The notes under the pieces were generated by a model. The model made no database searches, was not told where the DNA came from, and saw only the letters and a program-made list of their open reading frames with translations. The position numbers were made by a program, and so were the translations under genes. Below, piece by piece: positions 16,754-63,141 of a DNA stretch of 64,000 nt. Positions within the stretch are counted from its first letter, which is position 1, and every line of letters starts with the position of its first letter. The stretch is from Hoylesella saccharolytica JCM 17484 (GTDB taxonomy: Bacteria > Bacteroidota > Bacteroidia > Bacteroidales > Bacteroidaceae), in assembly GCF_000614205.1 (NCBI RefSeq), contig NZ_BAKN01000008.1, positions 1-64,000 on the forward strand, read 5' to 3'.

Positions 16754-17369
16754 TTAATATCTTACGTTTTTATTAAAAATTCCATTTAACGCCCGTTATT
16801 TGCGTTCTGCGCCGTTTGGGCTTATTTTACAAGGTGCTAAATTACGACATTTTTTTTATCTACAGAAACTTTTAAAGCTAAAATACGCCAAAACAGAACG
16901 ATAGGGGGCTTTGCATTCAAAATAACGGTGGCAGAAAACAGAACTTTCTCGCTCAATTCGGTTTGTTATCTTTTATGCAGAAAAACTTTCAAACTGTAAG
17001 TTTTACCATTATAAAAATAAACCTGTATATTTCGCGAGGGTGCCTATAAAATCATTCTACGTATTTCTCGATTCATAAAAGTATAAGGATCTTACGATCA
17101 TATATAAATCCAACAAACAGTTTGTTTATTGTAAAGAGCTCTTATTCTTTATTCACTCCTTTAAAAGAGTATAAGCCATCTAAACAACATAGAGTTCAAC
17201 AAACTTTTATACCTTTTAAAAATTCACTTTGCCACATTTTTTATATTTTTTGCCCTATATGTGCAAGAATCCTTTATCAGAAAACAGTTAATTTTGCAAT
17301 TAAAGAACTTAATTAACTTCATGCCAAATAAAACTATCAGGCAATATTAAAATCACACTAAAAAACATC
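16754..17369. other. Intergenic region between gyrA and susC
   Basis: 616 bp, AT-rich, no convincing gene. It must hold the gyrA promoter (minus) and the susC promoter (plus). TAATTTTG at 17289-17296 is a candidate -7 box 74 bp before susC, without a good TTTG at the right distance. I see no array or strong hairpin. Confidence 0.4.
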
Positions 17370-26321: not shown

Positions 26322-26431
26322 CAAAGCATAACTTTTAGGGTTAAAAACCTATGCTTTTAGAGGGTAAAAGAATAGCTTTTAGCATGCAAAAGCTATGTTT
26401 TTACAAGCCGAAAGCATAGGTTTCAGCATGT
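26322..26431. repeat. Phased 22-bp repeat array (five units)
   Basis: The 530-bp gap 26192-26721 has no gene. Five consecutive units start at 26322, 26344, 26366, 26388 and 26410, each exactly 22 bp: A-tract, seven bases, T-tract, seven bases (A4-N7-T4-N7, with one or two edge substitutions). The N7 cores are GCATAAC, CCTATGC, GAATAGC, GCTATGT and GCATAGG; the second and fifth are reverse complements. The same design occurs at 52603 and 60883. TAAATTTG at 26697-26704 is a probable -7 box for the regulator gene. Confidence 0.9.
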
Positions 26432-46224: not shown

Positions 46225-46391
46225 CAAAGAAAAAGTGAAAAGTGAAAGAGTGAAAAGGTGGAAAGGGATAGGTGTACTACATTACTTGCGCTTTGCTCTT
46301 TATATGGTGCCTGCATCCTTTCACTTTTTCACTTTTTTACTTTTTCACTTTTTCACTTTTTCACCCTTTCACCTTTTCACCCTTTCACTTT
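46225..46391. repeat. GTGAAAA / TTTTCAC simple repeat with inverted arms
   Basis: A purine stretch of GTGAAA(A) units at about 46225-46264 is matched by a long pyrimidine stretch of TTTTCAC units at about 46316-46391. A separate inverted CT/AG-rich pair is at 46004-46030 and 46108-46138 (CTCCCC ... GGGGAG). Together with the terminator they fill the gap 45968-46400; no gene is visible. Confidence 0.65.
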
Positions 46392-46400
46392 TAAACCGTC

Positions 46401-52602: not shown

Positions 52603-52712
52603 AAAAGCATAGGTTTGAGATTGCAAAAGCATAGGTTTTGGAGGATAAAAGCATTGTTTTGAGAATGCAAAAGCTATGTTTTTGAGAACAAAAAAACACG
52701 TTTTTAGGGCAT
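52603..52712. repeat. Phased 22-bp repeat array (five units)
   Basis: Units begin at 52603, 52625, 52647, 52669 and 52691, exactly 22 bp apart, in the form AAAA-N7-TTTT(or TTTG)-N7. The cores are GCATAGG, GCATAGG, GCATTGT, GCTATGT and AACACGT. The first is shared with the arrays at 26322 and 60883. Confidence 0.9.
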
Positions 52713-59840: not shown

Positions 59841-60818
59841 ATGAATGGACAGACCGAATTAAAACCATACGTTATCGGTTTAGACTTGGGCGGAACAAAC
59901 TCTGTTTTTGGAGTAGTTGACAGTCGTGGCGAAATCAAAGCTACAACCGCCATTAAAACACAAGCTTACGACAATGTAGAAGACTATGTAAAGGCTTCGC
60001 TTGAAGCATTACACATTATTATCGACCAAGTAGGTGGCATCGACACCATCAAAGCCATGGGAATAGGTGCACCTAACGGTAATTATTACAAAGGAACTAT
60101 CGAATTTGCACCCAACCTGATATGGGGACATACCGGGATAGTTCCGTTGGCCGACATGTTTTCACAAGGACTCGGCGTACCTGTAGCCCTAACCAACGAC
60201 GCCAACGCAGCCGCCATCGGCGAAATGATTTATGGCGTGGCACGCGGAATGAAAAACTTTATCGTTATCACACTTGGTACAGGTGTAGGTTCGGGTATTG
60301 TTGTTAACGGACAAGTAGTTTACGGAAGCGACGGATTTGCTGGCGAACTGGGTCACGTTATCGTATGTCGTGAAGATGGACGCAGCTGCGGATGCGGAAG
60401 AAACGGATGCCTCGAAGCCTACTGTTCAGCAACAGGTGTAGCCTGTTCGGCCCGTGAATTCTTGGAGAAATCTACCGAGCCCTCGCTGCTTCGTGAGCTA
60501 AATCCTGAAGAAATTACCTCGCTCGATGTTTCTATAGCAGCTTCCAAAGGCGACCAACTGGCACTCAACATCTACGAATTTACCGGTAGACTACTCGGAG
60601 AAGCCTGTGCAAACTTCGCAGCATTTTCCTCACCCGAAGCCTTTATCTTCTTCGGTGGGCTCACCAAAGCAGGCGATTTGCTGATGAATCCCATCAAAGA
60701 AAGCTACAACGAGCACGTTTTGAAGATATATAAAGACAAGGCTAAATTCTTAATCAGTGGTCTCGAAGGCTCTTCAGCCGCTGTTCTTGGTGCTAGTGCC
60801 GTAGGTTGGGAACTGTAA
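59841..60818 (+). CDS. ROK family glucokinase
   Basis: 325-aa sugar kinase. DLGGTNSVFG is the ATP phosphate-binding motif. LTNDANAAAIGE has the catalytic aspartate, and GELGHVIV with CGCGRNGCLEAYCS supplies the zinc-binding ROK signature. It would phosphorylate glucose or a related hexose in the cytoplasm. It may serve sugars released by the glycosidases upstream, but a link is only inferred. It stands as a single gene. Confidence 0.9.
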   Translation: MNGQTELKPYVIGLDLGGTNSVFGVVDSRGEIKATTAIKTQAYDNVEDYVKASLEALHIIIDQVGGIDTIKAMGIGAPNGNYYKGTIEFAPNLIWGHTGIVPLADMFSQGLGVPVALTNDANAAAIGEMIYGVARGMKNFIVITLGTGVGSGIVVNGQVVYGSDGFAGELGHVIVCREDGRSCGCGRNGCLEAYCSATGVACSAREFLEKSTEPSLLRELNPEEITSLDVSIAASKGDQLALNIYEFTGRLLGEACANFAAFSSPEAFIFFGGLTKAGDLLMNPIKESYNEHVLKIYKDKAKFLISGLEGSSAAVLGASAVGWEL

Positions 60819-60882
60819 AAACACTTCTCAAATATCGTATTTATAATTTTTGTGACAATCAACAGAGTGTATTTAGCTTTGT

Positions 60883-61014
60883 AAAAGATTATCTTTTACC
60901 TCGTGAAAGACCGTGTTTTGGGTAACAAAACACGGTCTTTTGCAAGGTAAAAGCATAGGTTTTAGAGACTAAAAGCATAGCTTTTGCAACCCAAAACCTA
61001 TGCTTTTAGGAACC
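60883..61014. repeat. Phased 22-bp repeat array (six perfect units)
   Basis: The gap 60819-61410 has no supported gene. Units start at 60883, 60905, 60927, 60949, 60971 and 60993, each exactly 22 bp: A4 (or GAAA), N7, T4, N7. The cores are GATTATC, GACCGTG, CACGGTC, GCATAGG, GCATAGC and CCTATGC. Units 2 and 3, and 4 and 6, are reverse complements. A further unit lies at 61125-61146 with AAAA beginning the next period at 61147; degenerate copies lie between. Confidence 0.93.
60906..60941. terminator. Terminator after glucokinase, units 2 and 3 of the array
   Basis: AAAGACCGTGTTTTG (60906-60920) pairs perfectly with CAAAACACGGTCTTT (60926-60940) around GGTAA. It doubles as array units 2-3, so the terminator and the repeat are one structure. 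Confidence 0.8.
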
Positions 61015-61379
61015 TATTTTTAAGCTATTGAAAATCAGTAACTTAAAAAGGGGATTGCAAGCATACATCTTTTACCTTCTACCTATGCCCCCTTTTACCT
61101 CATAATTGTACCACAGTTGTGAGTAAAAACATAGTTTTGAGGAGGTAAAACGGTAAAATTGAATGATAATATAATAAGGTGGTGAAATAAAAAAAATACA
61201 GATATGGTTAAAGTGAAACCGGCATATATTGTTGTAGCTTTATCTTTGCCGGTAGTAATGTTTACTTATCGATTATACCTTATACCGGTATGGTGTGTGC
61301 TTCTCTTTTCAGCTTACAGCCATTTTTATTTAAAATGTCCTTTTCTATATTGTCTTTATCGCATTCCAGATAATTTTTG

Positions 61380-61410: not shown

Positions 61411-63141
61411 ATGAACGTATTAGAACTGAGTGAACAGGAAATTGTGAGGCGGCAAAGTTTGCAAGAACTGCGGGATATGGGTATCGACCCCTATCCGGCG
61501 GCAGAGTTTTCCACCAATGCTTTTTCTACAGAGATAAGAGATAATTTCAAGGACGACGAACAACGAGAGGTGTGTATTGCGGGGCGAATGATGAGCCGAC
61601 GCGTGATGGGCAAGGCCAGTTTTGCCGAATTACAAGACTCGAAAGGGCGTATTCAGGTGTACATCACACGCGATGATATTTGCCCCGGCGAGAATAAGGA
61701 ACTTTATAACACGGTGTTTAAACGGTTGCTCGATATTGGCGACTTTATCGGCGTGCGCGGATTTGTATTTCGCACGCAGACGGGCGAGATATCGGTTCAT
61801 GCCCGCGAACTTACGGTGTTGAGCAAAAGTCTTAAGCCGTTGCCCATCGTGAAGTATAAAGACGGCGTGGCTTACGATAAGTTTGACGACCCCGAACTGC
61901 GCTATCGCCAGCGGTATGTAGACCTCGTGGTGAACGAAGGCGTGAAAGACACGTTTCTTAAGCGCGCCACCGTGCTGCGCACACTGCGTAACGTGCTCGA
62001 CGAGGCAGGCTATACCGAAGTAGAAACGCCCACCCTGCAAAATATTGCCGGTGGTGCAACGGCTCGCCCATTTATCACCCATTTCAACGCACTTAATCAA
62101 GAAATGTATCTGCGCATCGCCACCGAACTGTATCTGAAACGGCTCATCGTAGGCGGATTTGAAGGTGTGTATGAAATCGGAAAAAACTTCCGCAACGAGG
62201 GTATGGACCGCACGCACAATCCCGAATTTACGTGCATGGAACTCTACGTGCAATACAAAGACTATAATTGGATGATGGCGTTTACTGAGCAATTGCTCGA
62301 AACCATCTGCACAAAGGTAAACGGAAAGCCCGAAAGCGTGGTCGATGGCCAGGTTATTAGCTTTAAAGCGCCTTATCGCAGGCTGCCCATCCTTGACGCC
62401 ATCAAAGAAAAAACAGGGTTCGACCTCAATGGCATGACTGAAGACGAGATACGTAATGTGTGTCGTCAACTTAAAATGGAGGTAAACGAAACGATGGGTA
62501 AGGGCAAACTTATCGATGAGATTTTTGGCGAGTTCTGCGAGGGGCAATTTATTCAGCCCACATTTATCATCGACTATCCCGTTGAGATGAGTCCGCTTAC
62601 GAAGATGCATCGCTCGAAGCCCGGACTAACAGAGCGTTTCGAACTGATGGTAAACGGTAAAGAACTGGCCAATGCCTACTCGGAGTTGAACGACCCCATT
62701 GACCAAGAAGAACGTTTTGTTGACCAGATGAAACTGGCAGACAAGGGCGACGATGAGGCGATGGTAATTGATCAAGACTTTTTGCGTGCATTGCAATACG
62801 GTATGCCGCCCACATCGGGTATCGGCATTGGAATTGACCGATTGGTGATGTTGATGACAGGCCAGACCGCCATTCAAGAGGTACTTTTCTTTCCGCAGAT
62901 GCGCCCCGAGAAGAAAATTCCCAAAAGCACAGTGGCAGAATGGGCTGCGCTGGGTATTGCTGAAGAATGGGTTCCGGTACTGAACAAAGCTGGTTACAAC
63001 CTCGTTTCGGATATAAAAGAAGTGAAAGCGCAGAAACTTCAGATGGATGTCTGCGGTGTGAACAAAAAATATAAATTAGGCTACGACAATCCAAAAGTGG
63101 AAGCTTTCCAAGCTTGGATTGACAAGGCAAACGAAGAGTGA
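61411..63141 (+). CDS. lysS: Lysyl-tRNA synthetase, class II
   Basis: 576 aa. The N-terminal OB-fold binds the anticodon (VCIAGRMMSRRVMGKASFAE). Class II motif 2 is FRNEGMDRTHNPEF, and motif 3 is SGIGIGIDRLVML. Length is slightly above the E. coli enzyme, with a C-terminal extension after about residue 500 (ALGIAEEWVPVLNKAGYN ... AWIDKANEE), usual in Bacteroidetes. It overlaps gpsA by 4 bp. Confidence 0.96.
   Translation: MNVLELSEQEIVRRQSLQELRDMGIDPYPAAEFSTNAFSTEIRDNFKDDEQREVCIAGRMMSRRVMGKASFAELQDSKGRIQVYITRDDICPGENKELYNTVFKRLLDIGDFIGVRGFVFRTQTGEISVHARELTVLSKSLKPLPIVKYKDGVAYDKFDDPELRYRQRYVDLVVNEGVKDTFLKRATVLRTLRNVLDEAGYTEVETPTLQNIAGGATARPFITHFNALNQEMYLRIATELYLKRLIVGGFEGVYEIGKNFRNEGMDRTHNPEFTCMELYVQYKDYNWMMAFTEQLLETICTKVNGKPESVVDGQVISFKAPYRRLPILDAIKEKTGFDLNGMTEDEIRNVCRQLKMEVNETMGKGKLIDEIFGEFCEGQFIQPTFIIDYPVEMSPLTKMHRSKPGLTERFELMVNGKELANAYSELNDPIDQEERFVDQMKLADKGDDEAMVIDQDFLRALQYGMPPTSGIGIGIDRLVMLMTGQTAIQEVLFFPQMRPEKKIPKSTVAEWAALGIAEEWVPVLNKAGYNLVSDIKEVKAQKLQMDVCGVNKKYKLGYDNPKVEAFQAWIDKANEE

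Follow-up and report, generated by a model that had tools for sequence, protein, structure and literature searches.

An intergenic array with an exact 22-bp frame of A and T tracts in Hoylesella saccharolytica belongs to a dispersed repeat family

The Array Downstream of the Glucokinase Gene

The window (the whole stretch of 64,000 nucleotides analysed here) carries an array of short A and T tracts between a glucokinase gene and a tRNA synthetase gene that we take to be lysS. The features considered are the following:

59841..60818, + strand: ROK-family glucokinase gene (glk), ending 64 bp before the array
60883..61014, no strand assigned: six-unit array, A4-N7-T4-N7 in 22-bp units, last T tract ending at 61007
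60893..60953, + strand: long predicted stem-loop, the hairpin of boxes 2 and 3 extended through adjacent spacers and tracts (fold of 60870-61025)
60905..60941, + strand: hairpin of boxes 2 and 3 (cores GACCGTG/CACGGTC) 3' of the glucokinase gene, perhaps a weak terminator (followed by four T)
60955..61017, + strand: second predicted stem-loop, boxes 4-6 (fold of 60870-61025)
61411..63141, + strand: class II (D, K, N type) tRNA synthetase gene, beginning about 400 bp past the array
26322..26424, no strand assigned: second array of the same family, five boxes, imperfect
52603..52704, no strand assigned: third array of the same family, five boxes

Direct reading of the letters confirmed the six exact 22-bp units with fixed A and T tracts described in the original prediction. 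Units 1 and 2 are AAAA-GATTATC-TTTT-ACCTCGT and GAAA-GACCGTG-TTTT-GGGTAAC, units 3 and 4 AAAA-CACGGTC-TTTT-GCAAGGT and AAAA-GCATAGG-TTTT-AGAGACT, and units 5 and 6 AAAA-GCATAGC-TTTT-GCAACCC and AAAA-CCTATGC-TTTT-AGGAACC. All 12 tracts follow the proposed recurrence every 11 bp, successive starts being exactly 11 bp apart, and the sole departure is GAAA at 60905. The reverse-complementary cores reported earlier are present as two exact pairs (GACCGTG/CACGGTC and GCATAGG/CCTATGC), and the array is intergenic, as claimed. No Rfam match was found within the 64-kb window.

A tie of the array to the glucokinase gene was not borne out: none of 20 related genomes has an array at the corresponding position within the 420 bp 3' of the gene, on which ground glk-specific regulation was rejected. 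One of these relatives, G017, has an array of its own kind farther downstream within the 420 bp. The array family is thus not peculiar to the glucokinase gene. The array at 60883-61014 is one solitary copy of a genome-wide intergenic array module composed of 22-bp units Y-AAAA-N7-TTTT-R-N5.

Abundance and Spacing Rule in the Genome

The genome is a 2.98-Mb assembly in 82 contigs, from which sampled stretches and the window together provided 855,396 bp. Genes were called by a home-made script instead of a standard program, and the intergenic share of the sample is 24%. The 15-bp box AAAAGCATAGGTTTT (up to one mismatch) occurs 146 + 140 times in the 2.98-Mb genome, against 0 + 1 occurrences of its reversed letters. 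The pattern A4-Nk-T4 has its maximum in the sample at k = 7 (342), with at most 223 at each other k from 0 to 24. Box-to-box distances of up to 140 bp (up to three mismatches, same sample) are concentrated at 22 bp (108), 44 bp (78), 66 bp (59), and 88 bp (13), others being few. The five-tract pattern A4-Nk-T4-Nk-A4-Nk-T4-Nk-A4 was found 126 times at k = 7 and never at k = 3-6 or 8-14, while unequal gaps summing to 14 gave three matches, all of them 6/8. The same exclusive 7/7 gaps characterize genome G084 (50 matches) and P. falsenii (78), both without matches at any other uniform gap between 3 and 14. The original prediction would have been contradicted had the pattern been as abundant in shuffled DNA or within genes, which was not the case. 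The sample has 50 arrays of at least three boxes where one first-order Markov shuffle has none, and 182 of its 190 boxes (up to two mismatches) are intergenic; this comparison therefore does not refute the array.

Position of the Arrays along the Chromosome

The context of the arrays relative to genes differs between genomes. On contigs C82 and C81 of H. saccharolytica, 22 of 43 arrays lie in divergent gaps, a class that makes up 50 of the 245 gaps that are 150 bp or longer (p = 0.00008). Convergent gaps are enriched in G084, where they are 44 of 216 gaps and hold 23 of 56 arrays (p = 0.003), and in G010, where they are 17 of 109 gaps and hold 6 of 12 arrays (p = 0.011).

Arrays are evenly spaced on C82, where the coefficient of variation (CV) is 0.45 against 0.86-0.90 in the null (p ≤ 0.0004) and none of 25 spacings is shorter than 5 kb (5.6-6.3 expected), and likewise in G010 (CV 0.45, p ~0.007). 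Evenness is weaker on C81 (CV 0.68, p ~0.11), with none of 16 spacings below 5 kb for ~3.5 expected (p ~0.01); C80 has only three arrays. Spacing in G084 is not even (CV 0.80, p 0.14-0.30), with the caveat that 24,000 letters absent from this stretch may distort its spacings. Even spacing as a general rule was rejected on account of G084. Where it is found, it is compatible with a domain architecture, with transposition immunity, or with loss of close repeats, all of which would give it.

RNA Folding of the Arrays

The original prediction saw the terminator of the glucokinase gene in one of the core pairs. The GACCGTG/CACGGTC hairpin does appear in the predicted fold, but only four T follow it, a run of four U in the transcript, and the terminator scan called none at 60883-61014. 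The predicted folding energies of the array are -63 and -65 kcal/mol for its two strands, with z values of -8.5 and -10.0 relative to dinucleotide shuffles. Together with its position 64 bp after glk and the enrichment of convergent gaps in G084 and G010, these energies are what would be expected if the arrays acted as terminators or as stabilising stem-loops in transcripts. The z advantage, however, comes from shuffles that destroy the frame and are thus the wrong control. When the tracts are kept and the words are drawn from the pool of the same genome, the mean z of 124 arrays in six genome sets ranges from -0.07 to +1.79, and the arrays show no better folding than such draws give. Only the array at 60883-61014 falls below -2 (-2.2, and -0.3 against permutation of its own words), values in keeping with a real hairpin after glk. 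Adjacent cores show no significant excess of exact reverse complements over shuffled ones in any of seven sets. This core count includes the JAGBJI set (14 arrays), whose arrays seemed A-rich and different in type; for this reason it was left out of the folding and spacer sets. Among the 29 P. falsenii copies described below, the column pairs with the highest mutual information are unlike stem pairs. The preference of H. saccharolytica arrays for divergent gaps and the negative terminator scan also speak against a role in transcripts, which we regard as very improbable. Although the array at 60883-61014 folds very well, an RNA hairpin or terminator as the selected trait was rejected on the basis of the word-pool folding and of the adjacent-core test.

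Conservation of the Frame

Column consensus was compared between the tracts and other positions in two aligned sets of repeat copies, the 186-bp repeat of P. falsenii and the 427-bp element of H. saccharolytica (four boxes), both described below. The tract columns reach 0.975 in P. falsenii and 0.966 in the 427-bp element, where random A/T columns have 0.876 ± 0.026 and 0.870 ± 0.026, respectively. Runs of A4 or T4 outside the array score 0.928 in P. falsenii (10 columns, p = 0.002 versus tracts) and 0.896 in the 427-bp element (74 columns, p = 0.0075 versus tracts). Consensus is 0.884 and 0.850 in the cores, 0.839 and 0.788 in the spacers, and 0.825 and 0.840 in the DNA outside (P. falsenii and the 427-bp element, respectively). 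The spacer borders follow a rule in six genome sets (194, 56, 97, 17, 26, and 32 units): 89-100% of the units open the spacer with a purine, and 94-100% close it with a pyrimidine. Note that the unit length within arrays is fixed by the design of the search, while end-to-end lengths were measured from the ends; the latter do not vary in 24 of 25 copies of the 427-bp element and in 29 copies of the 186-bp repeat. Conservation of the tracts, the purine/pyrimidine borders of the spacers, and the constant end-to-end length together point to a DNA-level geometry as the constraint, in which the frame is kept and not the letters in between.

Predicted Curvature

Curvature was predicted with a wedge model, the score being the end-to-end distance over the contour length. 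For background, 600 intergenic and 400 coding stretches were taken from the top of the respective lists. The modelled score is 0.762 ± 0.056 for 50 arrays, 0.912 ± 0.053 for 600 other intergenic stretches, and 0.887 for block-shuffled arrays. The central 105 bp of the array at 60883-61014 scores 0.729, and only 0.8% of 600 other intergenic 105-mers are predicted to be more curved, in agreement with the intrinsic curvature expected in the original prediction. Curved DNA was reported to pin the tip of a supercoiled loop in vitro (PMC6301789). The arrays could accordingly be elements that bend unaided and hold such a tip, needing no special protein, which their modelled scores and a period near 11 bp would fit. 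Within the same model, random filler between the same tracts bends as much or more (0.778, 0.771, and 0.756, versus 0.806, 0.766, and 0.816 for the real sequences), and curvature thus does not appear to be a maximised trait. A 6/6 spacing would be almost as bent (0.78), yet it is absent, and the R...Y rule is predicted to lower bending (~0.82, versus 0.64 for C...G). These comparisons, all within the model, do not support maximal curvature as the sole selected trait and therefore lead us to put protein recognition of the frame ahead of bending alone; we judge curvature of the bare DNA an unlikely explanation.

A Carrier Element of 427 bp

An end of the CTTWCAAWTTGTWA type (up to two substitutions) was found within 330 bp of 36 of the 50 arrays. 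The array at 60883-61014 is among the 14 solitary ones. When the flanks of 53 arrays were compared by BLAST, some arrays lay inside longer repeats and others matched within the array only; for the array at 60883-61014, homology to other arrays of the genome stops at the array limits. End pairs 300-900 bp long that bracket arrays number 75, of which 24 are 427 bp long and one is 426 bp long, with no other length in the range 420-434 bp. The remaining 50 are scattered over 300-900 bp, the next commonest length being 349 bp (3). The 24 copies of 427 bp (one of them at C82 20537-20963) keep this length to the base despite a mean pairwise identity of 77% (lowest 52%).

The 427-bp consensus has at least 62 matches in the whole genome, at least 40 of them nearly full-length at 79-92% identity. 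These counts are lower bounds because 40 of 161 candidates were scored. In the genus, 29 of 200 genomes have a match, its own included. The other 28, with three candidates scored in each, have no full-length match; nearly all of their matches fall within the array part, and those that do not are short and come from G104 and G056. The array is thus more widely spread than its 427-bp carrier.

The 427-bp copies have terminal inverted repeats, as MITEs do, which are absent within 330 bp of the array at 60883-61014. Ends of the 427-bp type (up to three mismatches) occur 81 + 87 times in the genome and 23 + 10 times in the reversed control. Matches of 2-9 bp that could represent target-site duplications are at expectation in the 24 copies of 427 bp and in 29 P. 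falsenii copies; the true ends of the copies may lie farther out. No long end pair that could mark an autonomous parent with the same ends was found among the 100 ends listed of 168. Many 427-bp copies are bordered on both sides by inverted short tandem repeats of the TTTTCACC type, and the full element may therefore be longer than 427 bp.

Occurrence in Other Species

The five-tract pattern without fixed words was found in 93 of 299 genomes of the genus, a count that includes low-complexity matches, with up to 338 + 345 occurrences in one genome. It is missing from the other 206 and is therefore dispensable. The genus is presumably Prevotella sensu lato. Across the order, 6 of 393 genomes have the six-tract pattern, which is clear in the genome studied here, in G650, and in G481, and low-complexity or doubtful in G375, G479, and G377. 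Genomes throughout the genus have the same 22-bp frame with other core words, as do at least two distant genera of Bacteroidales. The words are CCTACGC and CAGCCGC in G084 and P. falsenii, GATAACC and GATGACC in G010, GCAGCCC in G292 and G012, TAGGCTA in G245, GTCTAAC in G481, and GAGCCTC and CCTATCG in G650 as well as in Odoribacter lunatus. Carriers by name, among the 80 matches listed of at least 101 matching stretches, are P. falsenii, P. disiens, P. pallens, P. brunnea, P. ruminicola, and Hoylesella nanceiensis. The few matches in records labelled Fibrobacter, Bacilli, or Nanoarchaeota have no clean array or an A-rich one. Sixteen viral contigs have the six-tract pattern; by eye, four of them (L292, L293, L302, and L305) carry Prevotella-type words, and the others have A-rich or other tandem repeats. 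An 81-nt array had no match in 72,556 plasmid records.

Relation to PINSR and to Other Short Repeats

Short interspersed intergenic repeats are the class to which the array family belongs, and one of its forms is almost certainly PINSR, a published repeat. According to its description (PMC4755523), PINSR is an intergenic sequence of 188 bp; two strains of P. intermedia carry 177 and 184 copies, and PCR detected it in P. nigrescens, P. falsenii, and P. disiens as well. It was judged non-coding and devoid of terminal inverted repeats, and its function was left unexplained. In P. falsenii we found 29 copies of exactly 186 bp, running from TGTAAA to TTTACA, in 25 stretches (the next lengths, counting both orientations, are 156 bp (8), 167 bp (7), and 173 bp (5)). 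Their mean identity is 79% (lowest 62%), and four framed boxes occupy the middle 81 bp of each copy. By comparison with the published description, the 186-bp repeat is almost certainly PINSR. PINSR and the arrays have in common an intergenic, non-coding nature and hundreds of copies. Unlike PINSR as described there, the P. falsenii copies have imperfect inverted ends (11 of 14 positions on the consensus). No pair of ends 186 bp apart was found in four stretches of P. disiens. Arrays with other words are carried by P. pallens and H. nanceiensis, two species in the legend of the PCR figure that are not named as positive in the text (PMC4755523).

The array at 60883-61014 shares its frame with the P. 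falsenii copies, but not its words or flanks, and its homology to other arrays of the genome ends with the array and does not extend to a 188-bp repeat. Most copies in H. saccharolytica are instead accompanied by the ends of the 427-bp element. The array module is found mostly in or beside a 427-bp MITE-like element in this species and, almost certainly, in the middle of PINSR in the P. intermedia group. The original prediction knew of no named repeat class of this design. PINSR is almost certainly such a class; as to the design itself, the passages of PMC4755523 give PINSR without any inner arrangement. We found no account of PINSR beyond that paper, and no description of the frame in the literature searched on Prevotella intergenic and MITE repeats, on 22-bp repeats of P. 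gingivalis and Bacteroidetes, or on A-tract periodicity. In P. falsenii (L064-L143), seven-base words such as CCTACGC, CAGCCGC, and CCGTAGG are swapped between boxes as whole cassettes, sometimes breaking the pairing of neighbours. This exchange of entire words suggests gene conversion between copies.

BrickBuilt, a MITE of Porphyromonas gingivalis, resembles the element-borne arrays in having tandem units of about two helical turns within an intergenic element with leader, tail, and inverted ends (PMC4596501). It differs by 23-nt direct repeats with indels, in up to 22.8 copies, and by IS5-like ends (PMC4596501), whereas the units here are exactly 22 bp, the boxes occur in either orientation, the ends are different, and arrays are also solitary. 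The phased A-tract clusters of bacterial genomes have A/T runs about 11 bp apart, predicted curvature, and an intergenic location (PMC3940949). The arrays have the A/T runs at 10-11 bp and, by model, the curvature of such clusters, and are distinguished from what is described there by an exact period, fixed A4/T4 alternation, the R...Y spacer rule, and amplification as a repeat.

No Y1 (TnpA-REP) transposase (PF01797) was found in the 94%-complete genome, control genomes being positive, and a REP/RAYT system was rejected for this reason. Four of 14 other carrier genomes have a Y1 transposase. REP/BIME elements with RAYT transposases are short, species-specific intergenic repeats present in many copies and containing reverse-complementary parts. 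The arrays share all these traits and differ in the missing transposase and in a pairing that is not selected.

Possible Function of the Arrays

The arrays might have no host function. They would then be the inner minisatellite of a selfish or inert MITE-like repeat that is mobilized by a transposase in trans and grows by duplication of 22-bp units, its frame going back to a few founders in each species. The inverted ends of the 427-bp copies, the dispersal of at least 40 nearly full-length ones, the whole-cassette exchange of words in P. falsenii, the placement mainly between transcription units, and the BrickBuilt precedent (PMC4596501) would all agree with such an origin. A frame that recurs in many species with different words, and carriers that keep their length in 24 of 25 and in 29 copies at 77-79% mean identity, are unexpected of inert DNA. 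Neither a target-site duplication (24 + 29 copies) nor a parental transposase (among the ends listed) was found, and an end of this kind is missing near 14 of the 50 arrays. On balance, we consider an inert repeat somewhat unlikely.

The best reading, to which we give a probability of about 0.42, is a DNA-level lattice for protein binding that is borne by MITE-like elements, its mechanism being a proposal. Face-aligned protein binding, already suggested in the original prediction, is plausible and leads among the explanations. The A/T tracts and a flexible pyrimidine-purine step on their spacer side would return to the same face of the helix at 11-bp intervals. A candidate protein may bind side by side along this face, each dimer-sized site spanning two turns of pre-bent DNA, and the covered array would form an architectural platform between transcription units. 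Element-borne arrays may also aid in bringing the two ends of their carrier together. We favour this protein-binding lattice because of the exclusive 7/7 gaps, the R...Y borders, the conservation of the tracts, and the same frame with other words across species, as well as because of the constant carrier lengths, the modelled curvature, and the even spacing on C82 and G010. Several observations weigh against it. Copies within a species share descent, and their words and frame are therefore inherited in part; arrays are not evenly spaced in G084 and only weakly so on C81; divergent gaps are preferred in H. saccharolytica and convergent ones in G084 and G010; A-rich runs outside the arrays are also well conserved; and most genomes of the genus dispense with the pattern.

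A more far-reaching form of the protein-binding proposal, which we hold to be quite unlikely, is a DNA ruler of fixed geometry: an architectural protein of Bacteroidales, or a family whose members read the seven-base words differently from species to species, would sit on 22-bp-framed arrays every 10-30 kb between transcription units and set chromosome domains. The sites would be spread locally by carriers such as PINSR and the 427-bp element, with a common frame and letters rewritten in each species.

The work provides a general rule that can be tested: intergenic arrays keep an exact 22-bp frame and its YAAAA/TTTTR borders while other sequence is replaced, in many genomes of the genus and at least two distant genera of the order. 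It gives the published PINSR an inner design that reaches beyond its stated lineage, and the frame points to a DNA-binding partner. The copies also matter in practice as recombination sites, rearrangements between PINSR copies having been reported (PMC4755523).

Other Repeats of the Window

At 46229-46392, short tandem repeats of the AAAAGTG and TTTCACTT types form two inverted blocks separated by roughly 60 bp; the blocks resemble the flanks of the 427-bp element and have no array between them. At 16986-17004 an inverted end of the 427-bp type (two mismatches) is followed by sequence like the left body of the element, perhaps a decayed copy without array. Another type of repeat is found at 2197-2336, where about 3.5 copies of a 41-bp tandem repeat contain GGCGATTCAATCGCC palindromes. 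The segment 44494-44775 is a 41/83-bp tandem repeat of about seven copies with 88-91% matches.
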